A DNA stretch of 64,000 bases, from NCBI RefSeq assembly GCF_019059575.1, contig NW_024882198.1:246001-310000 (forward strand), read 5' to 3'. Each line of letters starts with the position of its first letter. The first letter of the stretch is position 1. This document shows positions 26,615 to 61,500 of this stretch, one piece after another. Under the pieces are notes generated by a model. That model was not told the origin of the DNA and did no database searches. It saw only the letters and a program-made list of their open reading frames with translations. Made by a program: the position numbers and the translations under genes. The stretch is from Amphibalanus amphitrite (taxonomy: Eukaryota > Arthropoda > Thecostraca > Balanomorpha > Balanidae).

Positions 26615-29600
26615 ATGAGTCGTGTTCTCTCAAGTAAGGTGAGCACGACACCATTTGAGGGCCAAAAGCCAGGCACCAGTGGCCTCCGCAAGAAGGTCAC
26701 AGAGTTCCAGAAGCCCCATTACACTGAGAACTTTGTGCAAAGCACGCTCTCAGCTCTAGGAGACAAGATTGATGGCTGCACACTGGTTGTCGGAGGTGAT
26801 GGCCGCTTCTTCACCAAGGAAGCTGTGGCCATCATCATCAAAATGGCAGCTGCCAATGGAGTGAGTGGCAAGCTGGTTTCATTGAATGGAATGCTGCTAT
26901 TTTGTTCAGTGGAGTTTATGACATGTGCAATCTGAATCCAAGGCAAACCTGAAATGTCAAATTGCAAAGCATTTTTTCAATTAAGGTCATGTGTAAATTG
27001 GCATGTGCTGCGCTGTGTCAAGTGCTGGAGTTGGCTCTAACACAGCGCCGTGTCCGTCTGTGTGCAGGTGAAGCGTCTGATTGTGGGCCAGCATGGTGTG
27101 CTCTCGACTCCTGCAGTGTCCTGCCTGATCCGCAAGCACCAGACCATGGGCGGCATCATTCTGACAGCCAGCCACAACCCCGGTGGCCCCGACGGCGACT
27201 TTGGCATCAAGTTCAACTGCGCCAACGGAGGTGGGCGGACGCGGCTCTCCTGATGCAGATAGAGAGATGGATGGGGCGCTGGGTCCTGATGATGGACGGG
27301 ATGCCTTTTTGTTGTAGCTTGTTATTAAATGCTCAGAGAAAGTAGAAATGTAAGATAAGGTATTTCTGTAATCTACAGATCAGTGTATGGTACATATCCG
27401 CTTACCGTTAAAACAGCGATGTTGTCTCGGCTCGCTATCTTTTACCGGGGAGACGGTAAAAGATACCGGAATGGTAAATGCACATCGCAAGCATATTTTG
27501 TGTCGATTAACAGCCCCAGATCCGATTATAACGTTTTTTTAATATGATGTGTGTTTAGCCATAAGCTTATTTGTCCGAGTAGGCTGTCATTTCCATTATC
27601 AGTAATGTGCGCACGGATGTCCAGGTCCGGCTCCGGAAGCGGTCACGTCGGAGATCTACCAGATCTCCACCAAGATCAGCTCGTACAGCATCGCCGACAT
27701 CAGCTGCGACATCGACGCCATCGGCAGCTCGTCCTACTCGGTGCGTGACAGAGTCGCGTCAGGGGATCTTAGTTACGTACACTTGCTCTGCGTTATCGAG
27801 TTCCGCCGGTCCGCCGGTCACATAATTGATGTAAATATGATTTATGAATTATAAATAGTTTTGTTGCATAAATATCAATGGCCTTCTGATGAACTCAGTT
27901 ATCCAAACTCACATTGGTTTGAGTTATCCATTGTAACTGATGATATCTGTTATATGATTTTATCCCCAACCGCAGCCCCCCGCCCTGAGCGTGGTGCCAG
28001 CCGCCGCTGTCCCGGCTGACGGCTCTGTCCCCGTGCTCCCTCCCCAGGTGGACGGTCGTCTGTTCATTGTGGACGTGGTGGACTCTGTGGACGACTACGT
28101 CCACCTGATGCGGCAGATTTTCGACTTTGACGCCATTCGACAGCTGCTGACGGGGTCGGACGGCAACGAGCCGCTCCGAATCCGGGTCGACTGTCTCAAC
28201 GGAGGTCGGTTGAGTCGACGATAGGTGGATATGGGACGGGTTATACCCCACGTAATGCTTCGTAAACTTCGACTACTTCCACTGCTTCATCTAACGGGCA
28301 CCAGCCGAGCGGTGCCGATGCTGACTGCCCAGCCCCGGGCTTCCTGTCTGATTTCCCGTGTGTATCCAAACCGTGGCAAAGACAGCTTTGTGAGGCAATT
28401 GCTATCAGCTTTCCGGTATAATCTCACAGGTCACCGTTAAAGGTAATTATTTTACTGATCATTGATTTGCCTGTGCCACTCTGGTGCCGGTAACGGAAAT
28501 GTATTTGTAGCGTGTTTCGTCATACTGTTTATTCTGGTTGTTAACTCCTCTTGTTCCTCTCGCTGACAGTGACGGGCCCGTACGCGCGGCGCGTGTTCTG
28601 CGAGGAGCTCGGCGCGCCGGCGGACGCGGTGGTCCACAGCCAGCCTCTGGCCGATTTCGGCGGCCTCCACCCCGATCCGAACCTGACCTACGCCAAACCG
28701 CTGGTGGAGGCCGTCAAACAGGGCGGGCAGGGCTTCGGAGCCGCCTTCGACGGAGACGGGGTGAGTGCAAGATCGCCGCGGCGGAAGGAATTGTTGTATT
28801 GACTCGAAATGGTCAGGAGGTCTGCTGCTTGCTGCTCATGCTTACAAGTATTTATTTAAAAATTTAAGAATATTCGTTATTTTGTATTAATTGAAAAAAA
28901 ACGTTTATTATTCATTCAATGATGCAATGATGTTTACTCCACCCACTCTTGCAAATGTCTGATCTTTTTTCGTGTCCACTCCACAGGACCGCAACATGAT
29001 AATTGGCGAGGGCGCGTTCTTCGTGAACCCGTCCGACTCTCTGGCAGTTCTGGCCAACAACCTGGACTGTATTCCGTACTTCCGTCGGCTGGGAGTGCGC
29101 GGCCTGGCGCGCAGCATGCCGACAGGGTGTGCTCTGGACAGGTGAGCTGCTGTGGGAATGGGGAAGGTTAGAGTGCGCGGCCTGGCGCGCAGCATGCCGA
29201 CAGGGTGTGCTCTGGACAGGTGAGATCTATATAGGCAATGCTGTGGCCGATAGCTCGACAATAGGGGTATGGGAGTTATCAATGGGCTTAAGAGGCTTAC
29301 AGAATACGGAATGCCACACCGGTGCGACACTCGTCGAGGACCCGGTACCGTCCCTTGACAATTAGAGTGTCTTGAAGGCGTTGGACGTTGGTAGTTGGAA
29401 GCCAAAAACTACGGGAAGTGTGACTGCGATTCGAGGCGCGATTATTGCAGAAGATGAACGGAAATGTTGGATTAAATGGAATTCATTTGCAGAATACATG
29501 ACTTGTTGCTGGATATTTTACTGTGTTTCTGGTCATATTGTATCATACACCGGTGTCCAGTCAGATGTGGTAACCGTACCACGGCACGCATGAACAGCTG

Positions 29601-58500: not shown

Positions 58501-61500
58501 TATTGTATCAGTCATATACACTTTTCCTTTGAAGCTCACACTCATTTTAGACAAGATGCTCAAAATGGCCACCTCGGCGACGGATGACTCCAGCACCAGA
58601 GCCCTCAAGTTGGCGATGGCGCGGGCGCACCACATGTCTAAGGAAATGGAGCCAAAGAAGCTTGCAATGGCGTCCTTCAGTCGCATAATATCCTGGGGAC
58701 TCTCCTAACAGATCTCGGACTTTGCATAGCCCCGAGGAAGAATTGCATGCGACGTTGAGATCCGGCGAGTGTGGCGCCCACGAAACCTCAGCGCTATTTG
58801 AAATCAACTTTCCGGGGTTCGCTTACCAATTTTTTTTCTGCCGTATTTATCATTAAACCGTGTCCTCTGTTTTGAATTTATTAACAATTCTATTAATTGT
58901 TATCTTCTTTGGAGCTTCCCAAGGGTGCAGGCCCTCAGACGTGCAGAACTATCTTGGTGTCCGCTTAACGGACTACGTTAGCCGTTAAATTATACAAATT
59001 ACACATTTCTACATTTTGCTGCACGGTGTACATCTTGAGCGATATACAGAGACCAGACCAAGACCGAACAAAACTTCATAAAATTTGCCACTAGCACGTG
59101 AAATTTCACGCGAAAATATGCAATCCTCTTCTCAAGAGAGATCAACTAAATAGGGTAGGGTGGGGTAATTTGAACATGTGGGGCAATTTGAACATAGTGT
59201 AAAAAAAAAACACAAAATTACGGAAAATCCATAAGTGGCATGACAATAAGACCAATGAGGGAAATTATCATAACTAAAAGGGCTATCATATGAACGGGGT
59301 TTAAAGTTTCAGGGAATGAAGATGTTGACGCACACTGTAAAAAATCAATTTCGCAAGTAAAAACGCTTAAAATCACGTCATTGCAACTTCATTGCAGCGC
59401 AAAATCTTGCATTGCTAGCGTCTAATACGCAACGGCTTTTGTTGTACAATGACCTAATCAATGCCTTCAATCCAAGAAATTTGCTTTTCAAACTTGTTTT
59501 TAGATATGGCAAAATAACTTTTAGCGTGGGATAATTTGAACATAGTCTGAGAATTTCAGTGAAGACAGGGATAGCTCCGAAAAAACAACGCTCCCAGTTC
59601 TTTTTTTTTTTTGCCAATATTTTCGACCCAAAGCAGTAGCAGATACGTGATGCCAGTTTTATAAAATTTACGTCTAATATCCGTCTAATGTCCGGCATTT
59701 CCGTTGATTTCCGTTCAAAAATGTTAAAGGCAGCCATTTGTCCAAATATGTCTGAAAATTACGCATTAATCAACACTCAAAACTGTCATTTAAATTGCTT
59801 ATAATGTAATTTTACCAGCCGAAAAGTGTTCATTATATTGAGAGCTTAACAAGCTTTCCATTCGCCAATCAATGCTATGCACGTTACTTTATAAAAAGCG
59901 CTGAAGTGTAGCAAGCCATCGTCCAATGTTGTCCAGTCTGCTACCTTTGTCCAACCAGTTCCAAATTGGACATTGGACAAAATCAGAACTCAAAATGTCC
60001 AGGTTTCGATTGGCACCACTATAACAGGTGCAGCAAGGTTGGGAGAGTTTTTATCGAACAAAAATGATAGACGTTCTGTTAATTGAAGAGAGGCGAATTT
60101 TGTCAACTGACCGGTGTGCAGCGTGCAGATATTGATACTCTGCAACTGTTATTTTTGTTGTTGTGTTGATTTTTCAAGTGAAGGTGTGTTTAGAATTGTT
60201 CTGCCTATTTGTTTATGGGTCAAACAACATCGGTGCTGGCGAGACTATCGTTTTTATGACAGGTAAAGGCAGTATGTTCAAATTACCCCACAGTGGGGCA
60301 ATTTGAACACACCGTGACTTGATGGAGAAGTGAGGCTATGCTTTTCAAGGTATGCTCGGCTCGTCCAAAAATGAGGCTTGCATGGTGAAAGCAAGTGACA
60401 CTTGTGCTACTGAAGCAGTTTTTCTACATCCAGGGTTGAGCTGGAACTTGGTACAACGGAGAAGACGTAAAAATATGTTCAAATTACCCCACACTACCCT
60501 AGGTCACACGGCTATGAATCACCCTGTATATAGAGGAGAGAATAGAGGGAGGTTTTGAGCACAGGGTTGTCGTTTATCGTGATAGGTAGTTTTCCTAGCC
60601 TCAGGAAAGACGTGGCATTTTGGCCGGGGGAAATAATGGTGATTTTTGCCATTGAAGTGGAGGAGTCTCTTCCATTAGTACTTTCTGGCTCAGGCTTCTC
60701 CCCTCTCCAGCCGGGCTCCACTATCTCTGTGTGCTGTCTGACCCTCCCCCTCCCCAGCGTTCCACTGTCACTGCGTGGACCCGTGACTGTTGTCTGACTC
60801 CCCCCTCCCCAGCGTTCCACTGTCACTGCGTGGACCCGTGACTGTTGTCTGACTCCCCCCTCCCCAGCGTTCCACTGTCACTGCGTGGACCCGTGGCTGC
60901 TGCGCTCGCGGCGAGTCTGCCCGGTGTGTAAGCGGCGCCTGGTCTCTGCCACGCTGGCCGTGCTCGTCTCTGAGTCTGAGGACGACCAGCTGCTGCCCGT
61001 GTACCGTTCCCAGAGGCCGCCCGCCCGGAGATCGTACGGAGCGACCCTGACGGTCAGTGCGTACGGAATTTACGGAAGTGTTTGATGGGGCTAAGTGGCG
61101 CGTTGGTAATGAGGCTATTATGCACCTGGTACAGGAAAGGACGCCAGTGTATGGGGATCTTTTGTGCGCGGTAGCTCAACCTGTGCTTTTCAAAGGTTTC
61201 GTCGCATAAACTATGTATCGCCAGGTGGCATTGGTCATCGTCGTGAGATAGGAATGGATAGGAAGGCTGCATAGGAGGGATTTAACTGGCAGTTTCTGAG
61301 CGGATAAATTGCCACAAAAAACAGTAGACGCACCAGTCAGTGTAGTTCTAACACCACCGTTTATCATTGATATCCTATCTCCGGTTGTTCTGTCGCCACC
61401 GTCATGCTCTGCCTTTCTGTACGGCCTGGCTGCCTGCTGTCGCCCCCGACATCGGCTGACGGTGTGTGTTTCTGTGTGTGTCCAGGCTCAAAACCTCCCT

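Follow-up and report, generated by a model that had tools for sequence, protein, structure and literature searches.

Tandem copies of four exon-intron borders in three genes of Amphibalanus amphitrite

In a stretch of 64,000 nt from contig NW_024882198.1 of Amphibalanus amphitrite (the window), four exon-intron borders in three genes have near-identical tandem copies of themselves, and every one of these arrays straddles a modelled splice junction. The genes encode a phosphoglucomutase-1-like protein (PGM), a SPATA6-like protein, and an RNF13-like protein with PA and RING domains. We suggest that the arrays are probably young, ordinary tandem duplications at the DNA level, which took in an exon edge together with its splice site and have been tolerated since one outer junction stays intact. 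All four were re-measured on the raw letters of the window, and the junction duplications listed in a preliminary description of this DNA proved to be present and near-identical where it had placed them.

Gene models and structure of the arrays

The gene models were built by hand and checked for frame, with a coding-potential scan consulted outside the region of about 28.0-32.6 kb; all three genes lie on the forward strand. The PGM model (26615-31323, 10 exons, 560 aa) is the most firmly anchored at its duplicated border, as its protein matches PGM1 over nearly the whole length (E 7.1e-235) with a gap-free join of exons 6 and 7, and NCBIfam concurs. The SPATA6-like model (32391-35733, 8 exons, 422 aa) has a match to Pfam SPATA6 (E 3.1e-32) limited to residues 17-157, and its exon 6 is anchored by reading frame alone. 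A 26-bp tandem repeat also lies over the stop codon of this gene (35711-35770), at the border between coding sequence and untranslated region (UTR) and not at a splice junction. For the RNF13-like model (55579-62834, 10 exons, 462 aa), searches with the first 314 residues as query returned the Pfam PA and RING domains and a RING alignment to RNF13 (4.7e-21) that is gap-free over the join of exons 5 and 6; exon 1 ends just 5' of the PA match (57-140) and is anchored by reading frame only. Intron 5 of this gene (2542 nt) holds nested inverted repeats resembling those of mobile elements (58378-60532), with 31-nt arms at 58378-58408 and 60502-60532 and inner 27-nt arms at 59151-59177 and 60475-60501.

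The array at PGM exon 6 (28987-29141, outer donor at 29141/29142) consists of two copies. The first (29093-29146) comprises the last 49 nt of the exon and GTGAG, and is identical at 54 of 54 positions to the second (29171-29224), which lies within intron 6 and has its inner AG/GT at 29219/29220. The perfect 54-bp match at an offset of 78 reported in the preliminary description was thus confirmed, but the 24 bases between the copies (29147-29170) are unrelated to them, so that the structure is a direct repeat with a spacer and not a clean 78-bp tandem. Identity extends 5 nt into the intron, after which the flanks differ. That the spacer derives from a copy of the downstream intron which later suffered a deletion was considered and set aside, as 165 of 2000 shuffles aligned as well.

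The other three arrays are detected by Tandem Repeats Finder (TRF) as head-to-tail, near-identical units with 94-97% matches, a program that misses the PGM repeat. At the donor of SPATA6-like exon 6 (34565-34730), there are two 76-bp units and a stub, and the intron would start at 34613 with the outer site and at 34689 with the inner one. The units (34565-34640 and 34641-34716) agree at 74 of 76 positions, and the sole exonic difference (C at 34576, A at 34652) would be synonymous when read in frame, GGC against GGA; more short GGGCTACC motifs follow downstream. The donor array of RNF13-like exon 1 (55720-55949) has four copies at spacings of 64 or 65, with intron starts at 55747 (outer), 55811, 55876 and 55940. 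Copy 1 resembles copy 3 and copy 2 resembles copy 4, and this ABAB pairing, with a one-base deletion common to copies 2 and 4, makes growth of the array in two steps probable. An alignment of its intron part with the sequence past the array was not significant (175 of 2000 shuffles as good). The acceptor array of RNF13-like exon 6 (60735-60899) has three 55-bp copies, with intron ends at 60757, 60812 (both inner) and 60867 (outer). In the TRF register, copies 2 and 3 agree at 54 of 55 positions and copies 1 and 2 at 46 of 55, all nine differences of the latter pair falling in the first 11 bases; the repeat is exact over 60746-60895.

Among the 29 modelled introns (those of the three genes and four from two GH31 copies described below), length ranges from 154 to 2542 nt, with a median of 309 nt. 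The introns that hold donor arrays measure 530 nt (PGM), 474 nt (SPATA6-like) and 715 nt (RNF13-like exon 1), and the next modelled exon begins, at an existing acceptor, 448, 357 and 513 nt after the end of the respective array.

Probable use of the outer copy and probable origin

The full protein is obtained with the 5'-most copy in the donor arrays and with the 3'-most copy in the acceptor array. For the two frame-anchored junctions (SPATA6-like exon 6 and RNF13-like exon 1), the full-length frame itself partly guided the choice of model. When each of the seven inner sites was tried as a single alternative, all seven led to an early stop, which lies 5' of the last junction by 78-1241 nt. The products would be 343 of 560 aa for PGM (an immediate stop), 371 of 422 aa for the SPATA6-like protein, and for the RNF13-like protein 73 of 462 aa with any of three exon 1 donors and 261 of 462 aa with either of two exon 6 acceptors. 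Four of the inner RNF13-like copies are not coding, because they carry either the one-base deletion (exon 1 copies 2 and 4) or CCG TGA where the intact reading is CCG TGG (exon 6 copies 1 and 2). Since both the PGM exon 6/7 join and the RNF13-like exon 5/6 join within the RING domain align without gaps, use of the outer copy is favored there, and at the other two junctions it is favored by frame. We infer that the outer copy is the spliced one, as pointed to by reading frame and homology and not by the strength of the site.

This pattern would be expected if slippage or end-joining repair copied a segment spanning an exon edge, probably aided by short local homologies. The outermost copy (5'-most donor or 3'-most acceptor) would then join the neighboring exon and yield the normal mRNA, and the inner copies would become redundant decoy sites within a pre-existing intron. 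The copying appears to have taken place at the DNA level and not via RNA, because the edges of the duplications miss the splice sites and intron DNA was copied too, identity in the three arrays other than PGM running at least 12 nt past the splice site. RNA-mediated copying was judged unlikely on account of these off-site edges. GGCTACC-type motifs, which the SPATA6-like gene has in the exon and more than once in the intron, are probably breakpoint homologies, and the same probably holds for TGCTG at both ends of the RNF13-like exon 6 array, as for slippage or microhomology repair. Survivorship could explain why such events are seen at junctions, as a duplication that spans a junction would leave one junction intact, and one that is wholly coding would usually damage the protein; the richness of exons in GC may add to this. 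Neutrality of the inner copies is implied by this explanation.

Several points weigh against it. A scoring of splice sites for which the four junctions were kept out of the training leaves the choice of donor undecided, because the inner donors score as well as the outer ones: 8.7 (outer) and 10.2 (inner) in PGM, 10.4 for both in the SPATA6-like gene, and 10.7 (outer), 10.2, 10.7 and 8.8 in RNF13-like exon 1. Likewise, the acceptors of RNF13-like exon 6 score 11.2 in copy 1 and 11.0 in both copy 2 and copy 3, with the outer one not favored. Moreover, if the process had run for long, decayed copies would be expected, so that their absence at other edges counts against it. In a scan of 58 exon edges for copies in their own intron, 54 were left once the four known edges had been set aside, of which none reached rank 0.05 and three reached rank 0.1; 28 comparison introns set the lowest possible rank at 0.034, and copies down to about 70% identity over 50 nt are estimated from the scoring to stand out. 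The near-identity of all four arrays and the lack of decayed copies may reflect either quick loss or deletion, recent polymorphism, or in part an assembly artefact. Exact-pattern scans with the RNF13-like exon 6 edge in genome contigs and with a dispersed repeat in viral contigs gave no matches each, in collections that are not of animal genomes and for which the prior was low.

The position of the arrays is a further difficulty for a process without preference for junctions. Six arrays have a unit of at least 50 bp, and four of them straddle a junction where 0.91 would be expected, which is improbable under uniform placement with actual array lengths (P = 0.0046 for at least 4 of 6 and 0.00033 for 4 of 4 with a 10-base margin; 0.0072 for at least 4 of 6 when simulated with a 5-base margin). 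The junction set comprised 60 junctions, namely 50 from the three genes, eight from the two GH31 copies and two assumed 5' acceptors near 19958 and 38128, and, as it takes in neither UTR introns nor genes that went undetected in other parts of the window, the uniform-null P values are too small. The array census held 52 rows (51 from 75 TRF rows, three of which merge overlaps, plus the PGM repeat), merged where overlapping into 49 arrays, and it took in only rows with a period of 9 or more that did not lie inside another listed array.

The signal weakens under more constrained nulls. Over the whole window, the probabilities for 4 of 4 and for at least 4 of 6 are 0.00055 and 0.0075 when purely coding placements are forbidden, 0.0018 and 0.024 when placement is matched for GC, and 0.0069 and 0.066 under both restrictions. 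With placement restricted to the three genes, they become 0.046 and 0.32, then 0.053 and 0.34 when purely coding placements are forbidden, and 0.53 and 0.97 when GC is matched as well. Coding sequence in the window has a GC content of 0.671 against 0.504 elsewhere. The GC-matched null is itself partly circular, because an exon edge by itself makes the array that holds it GC-rich, which again counts against an explanation by ordinary duplication. Of the 43 merged arrays with smaller units, none extends over a junction, where 2.06 would be expected, and all 49 arrays together give 4 against 2.97 expected. Both the 50-bp threshold and the window itself were picked after the pattern had been seen. 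The preliminary description had called the clustering unusual, and nominally it is (4 of 6, P 0.005-0.007), but the smaller arrays show none of it, the size class is post hoc, and the GC-matched null within the three genes, with purely coding placements forbidden, returns 0.53 for 4 of 4. Clustering at junctions is thus suggestive, not established.

Alternative explanations

An artefact of assembly is one alternative, which we consider unlikely. Two alleles of a heterozygous animal, similar in the exon and divergent in the intron, might have been joined end to end. PGM fits this idea, since identity there is perfect through the exon and ends just where the flanking intron begins to differ. False heterotype duplications derived from heterozygosity are documented in the cited part of PMC9516828, and the frameshift of the minus-strand GH31 copy relative to its plus-strand partner implies that small assembly errors are possible in this window. 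Those false duplications resemble the present arrays as near-identical neighboring copies in one sequence; the examples in the cited part of that source are whole exons or genes, whereas three of the four arrays here are short and periodic. Indeed, the SPATA6-like array and both RNF13-like arrays have two to four copies that include intron DNA, exon 1 with its two-step ABAB order, and the window is without any N, all of which argues against an artefact.

It would be tempting to read the arrays as intron gain, with the segment between or spanning the copies being, or becoming, a new intron. This was the interpretation of the preliminary description, and we regard it as distinctly unlikely overall. 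GT and AG are indeed present at the ends of the DNA between donor copies, as had been noted, but these stretches are only 26-35 nt long, and in the SPATA6-like and RNF13-like exon 1 arrays the AG falls a few bases before the edge of the copy. The stretches between adjacent copies (30 nt in PGM, 26 and 35 nt in the other donor arrays) compare with a shortest modelled intron of 154 nt. The 28 reference acceptors score from 4.2 to 17.2, and no AG of these stretches exceeds the bottom of that range, with -10.2 in PGM, 4.2 in the SPATA6-like array and 2.7-3.1 in the RNF13-like one. Four inter-copy introns were tried and two of them keep the frame, that of 30 nt in PGM (576 aa) and that of 99 nt from copy 1 to copy 3 of RNF13-like exon 1 (472 aa), which speaks for the idea; the PGM version, however, would add 16 residues within a conserved stretch. 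Mini-introns between adjacent copies are rejected for their size, their low-scoring AGs and the loss of frame in two of the four that were tried.

Routes that skip a copy are longer and have weak acceptors. RNF13-like exon 1 offers two (99 and 164 nt) and the SPATA6-like gene one (102 nt); their AGs score 2.7, 2.7 and 4.0, of which the 2.7 of the RNF13-like routes is under all 28 reference acceptors, and the 164-nt route would leave a 29-nt insert that is not a multiple of three. In favor of a new intron, the SPATA6-like intron contains another AG with a score of 10.8, at 34752 and 140 nt past the outer donor, and no donor above 2.2 is listed between it and 34800. In addition, the inner exon end lacks AG/GT in these genes (CCG/GT in the SPATA6-like array, GGG/GT or AGG/GT in RNF13-like exon 1), the last donor copy runs into the remainder of the old intron and not into exon, and inner copies carry stops, a nonsense codon or a frameshifting deletion. 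The reading as intron gain is therefore left unsupported, save as an open possibility that concerns chiefly PGM.

In PGM, the 78 nt from the GT of copy 1 to the AG of copy 2 (29142-29219) might be removed first, which would regenerate the donor and leave the mRNA unchanged, in the manner of recursive splicing or of a stwintron. Among the three donor arrays, only PGM has an AG/GT proto-splice site (ACAG/GTGAG), and only there does a candidate acceptor adjoin the external donor (29219/29220), the other two being without one. This inner site, GACAG/GTGAG, has an acceptor score of 7.5, within the reference range and reached by 3.4% of 2002 AGs; among the longer candidates (78, 99, 164 and 102 nt), it alone provides an AG clearly within that range. 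Duplication of a donor in an existing intron is, moreover, the route proposed for stwintrons in Lipomyces in the cited part of PMC7138796. A bolder version, in which junctions in this lineage are preferred sites of 50-80-bp tandem duplication that supply redundant splice sites, and in which PGM is an animal proto-stwintron with a donor-regenerating 78-nt unit, raw material for intron multiplication caught before decay, seems to us very improbable.

The first part of that version can also be taken by itself, as a mutational bias of this lineage by which tandem duplications of 50-80 bp arise preferentially at exon-intron junctions, a proposal that we find very doubtful. Beyond the excess of long-unit arrays under uniform placement, it is consistent with the fact that, in the class with units of at least 50 bp, identity is at least 94% in the four arrays that straddle a junction and lower (92% and 88%) in the two that lie elsewhere. 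Against it stand the shorter arrays and the near-expected total over all 49, the post hoc size class, a window flagged for its striking look, the weakening under GC-matched nulls, and the absence of decayed copies at the 54 other edges.

Lastly, regulated redundancy, in which duplicated sites are kept since an inner choice gives an unproductive transcript, subject to nonsense-mediated decay (NMD), that tunes expression, is highly improbable: all seven inner choices do give stops upstream of the last junction and the inner donors are about as strong as the outer, but chance alone predicts stops in retained intron, three unrelated genes are involved, and the inner copies of RNF13-like exon 1 carry lesions.

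Comparison with known systems and other features of the window

Junction duplications are not claimed here as unreported, as a close case is in print (PMC4974935). In the potato RNA-dependent RNA polymerase (RdRp) gene, as given in the cited part of that source, a tandem duplication lies over an intron-exon border, and a new intron was detected, with support from phylogeny. Like RNF13-like exon 6, it spans the 3' end of an intron and the following exon edge; in contrast to potato, the inner exonic copies here run into a stop. In the model of intron gain by tandem duplication (Rogers model), the exon continues past the second copy, according to the cited parts of PMC4974935 and PMC2891723. The likeness is that the duplicated segment holds a donor and, in PGM, AG/GT as well. 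In the model, however, the duplication falls within an exon that has no interruption, and exon remains on either side of it, whereas here one end of an existing intron was already part of what was copied. The donor duplications proposed for the stwintrons of Lipomyces, which are fungi, measure 4-7 nt, and splicing intermediates were sequenced there (PMC7138796, cited part). A donor is likewise duplicated within an existing intron in PGM, and removal in one or two steps is conceivable, but the duplication comprises 54 nt including exon.

If junctions are prone to duplication, the genome would be rich in datable intermediates of splice-site duplication, and the long-debated route to new or nested introns by tandem duplication might be watched in populations. 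If they are not, the arrays call for caution, as copies of an exon edge mimic the birth of an intron, yet may be decoys in an old one and can mislead gene prediction.

Several other features of the window may be recorded. A head-to-head pair of GH31 alpha-glucosidase-like genes (39327-42513 on the minus strand and 44231-47498 on the plus strand) has inverted-repeat arms that are 85-98% complementary, with the Pfam match on exon 2 of the plus-strand copy. The plus-strand copy reads through; the frameshift of the minus-strand copy lies in exon 2 and gives 14 stops in the model, so that this copy may be either a pseudogene or the product of an assembly error. Another inverted repeat (7603-8012), with 138-nt arms that are 99% complementary and 134 nt apart, could be a young hairpin or resemble a miniature inverted-repeat transposable element (MITE). 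An Arg/Ser-rich open frame (38143-38856) with a degenerate 42-48-bp coding repeat matches no Pfam family at E 0.001. A degenerate 22-23-bp minisatellite occupies four blocks in 48519-49505. A run of CCTAA (53475-53506, 6.4 copies, 77% matches) is telomere-like and of the TTAGG type, which is typical of arthropods. Finally, a long open frame at 19959-22535 has ZP and cuticlin domains and several short coding repeats.

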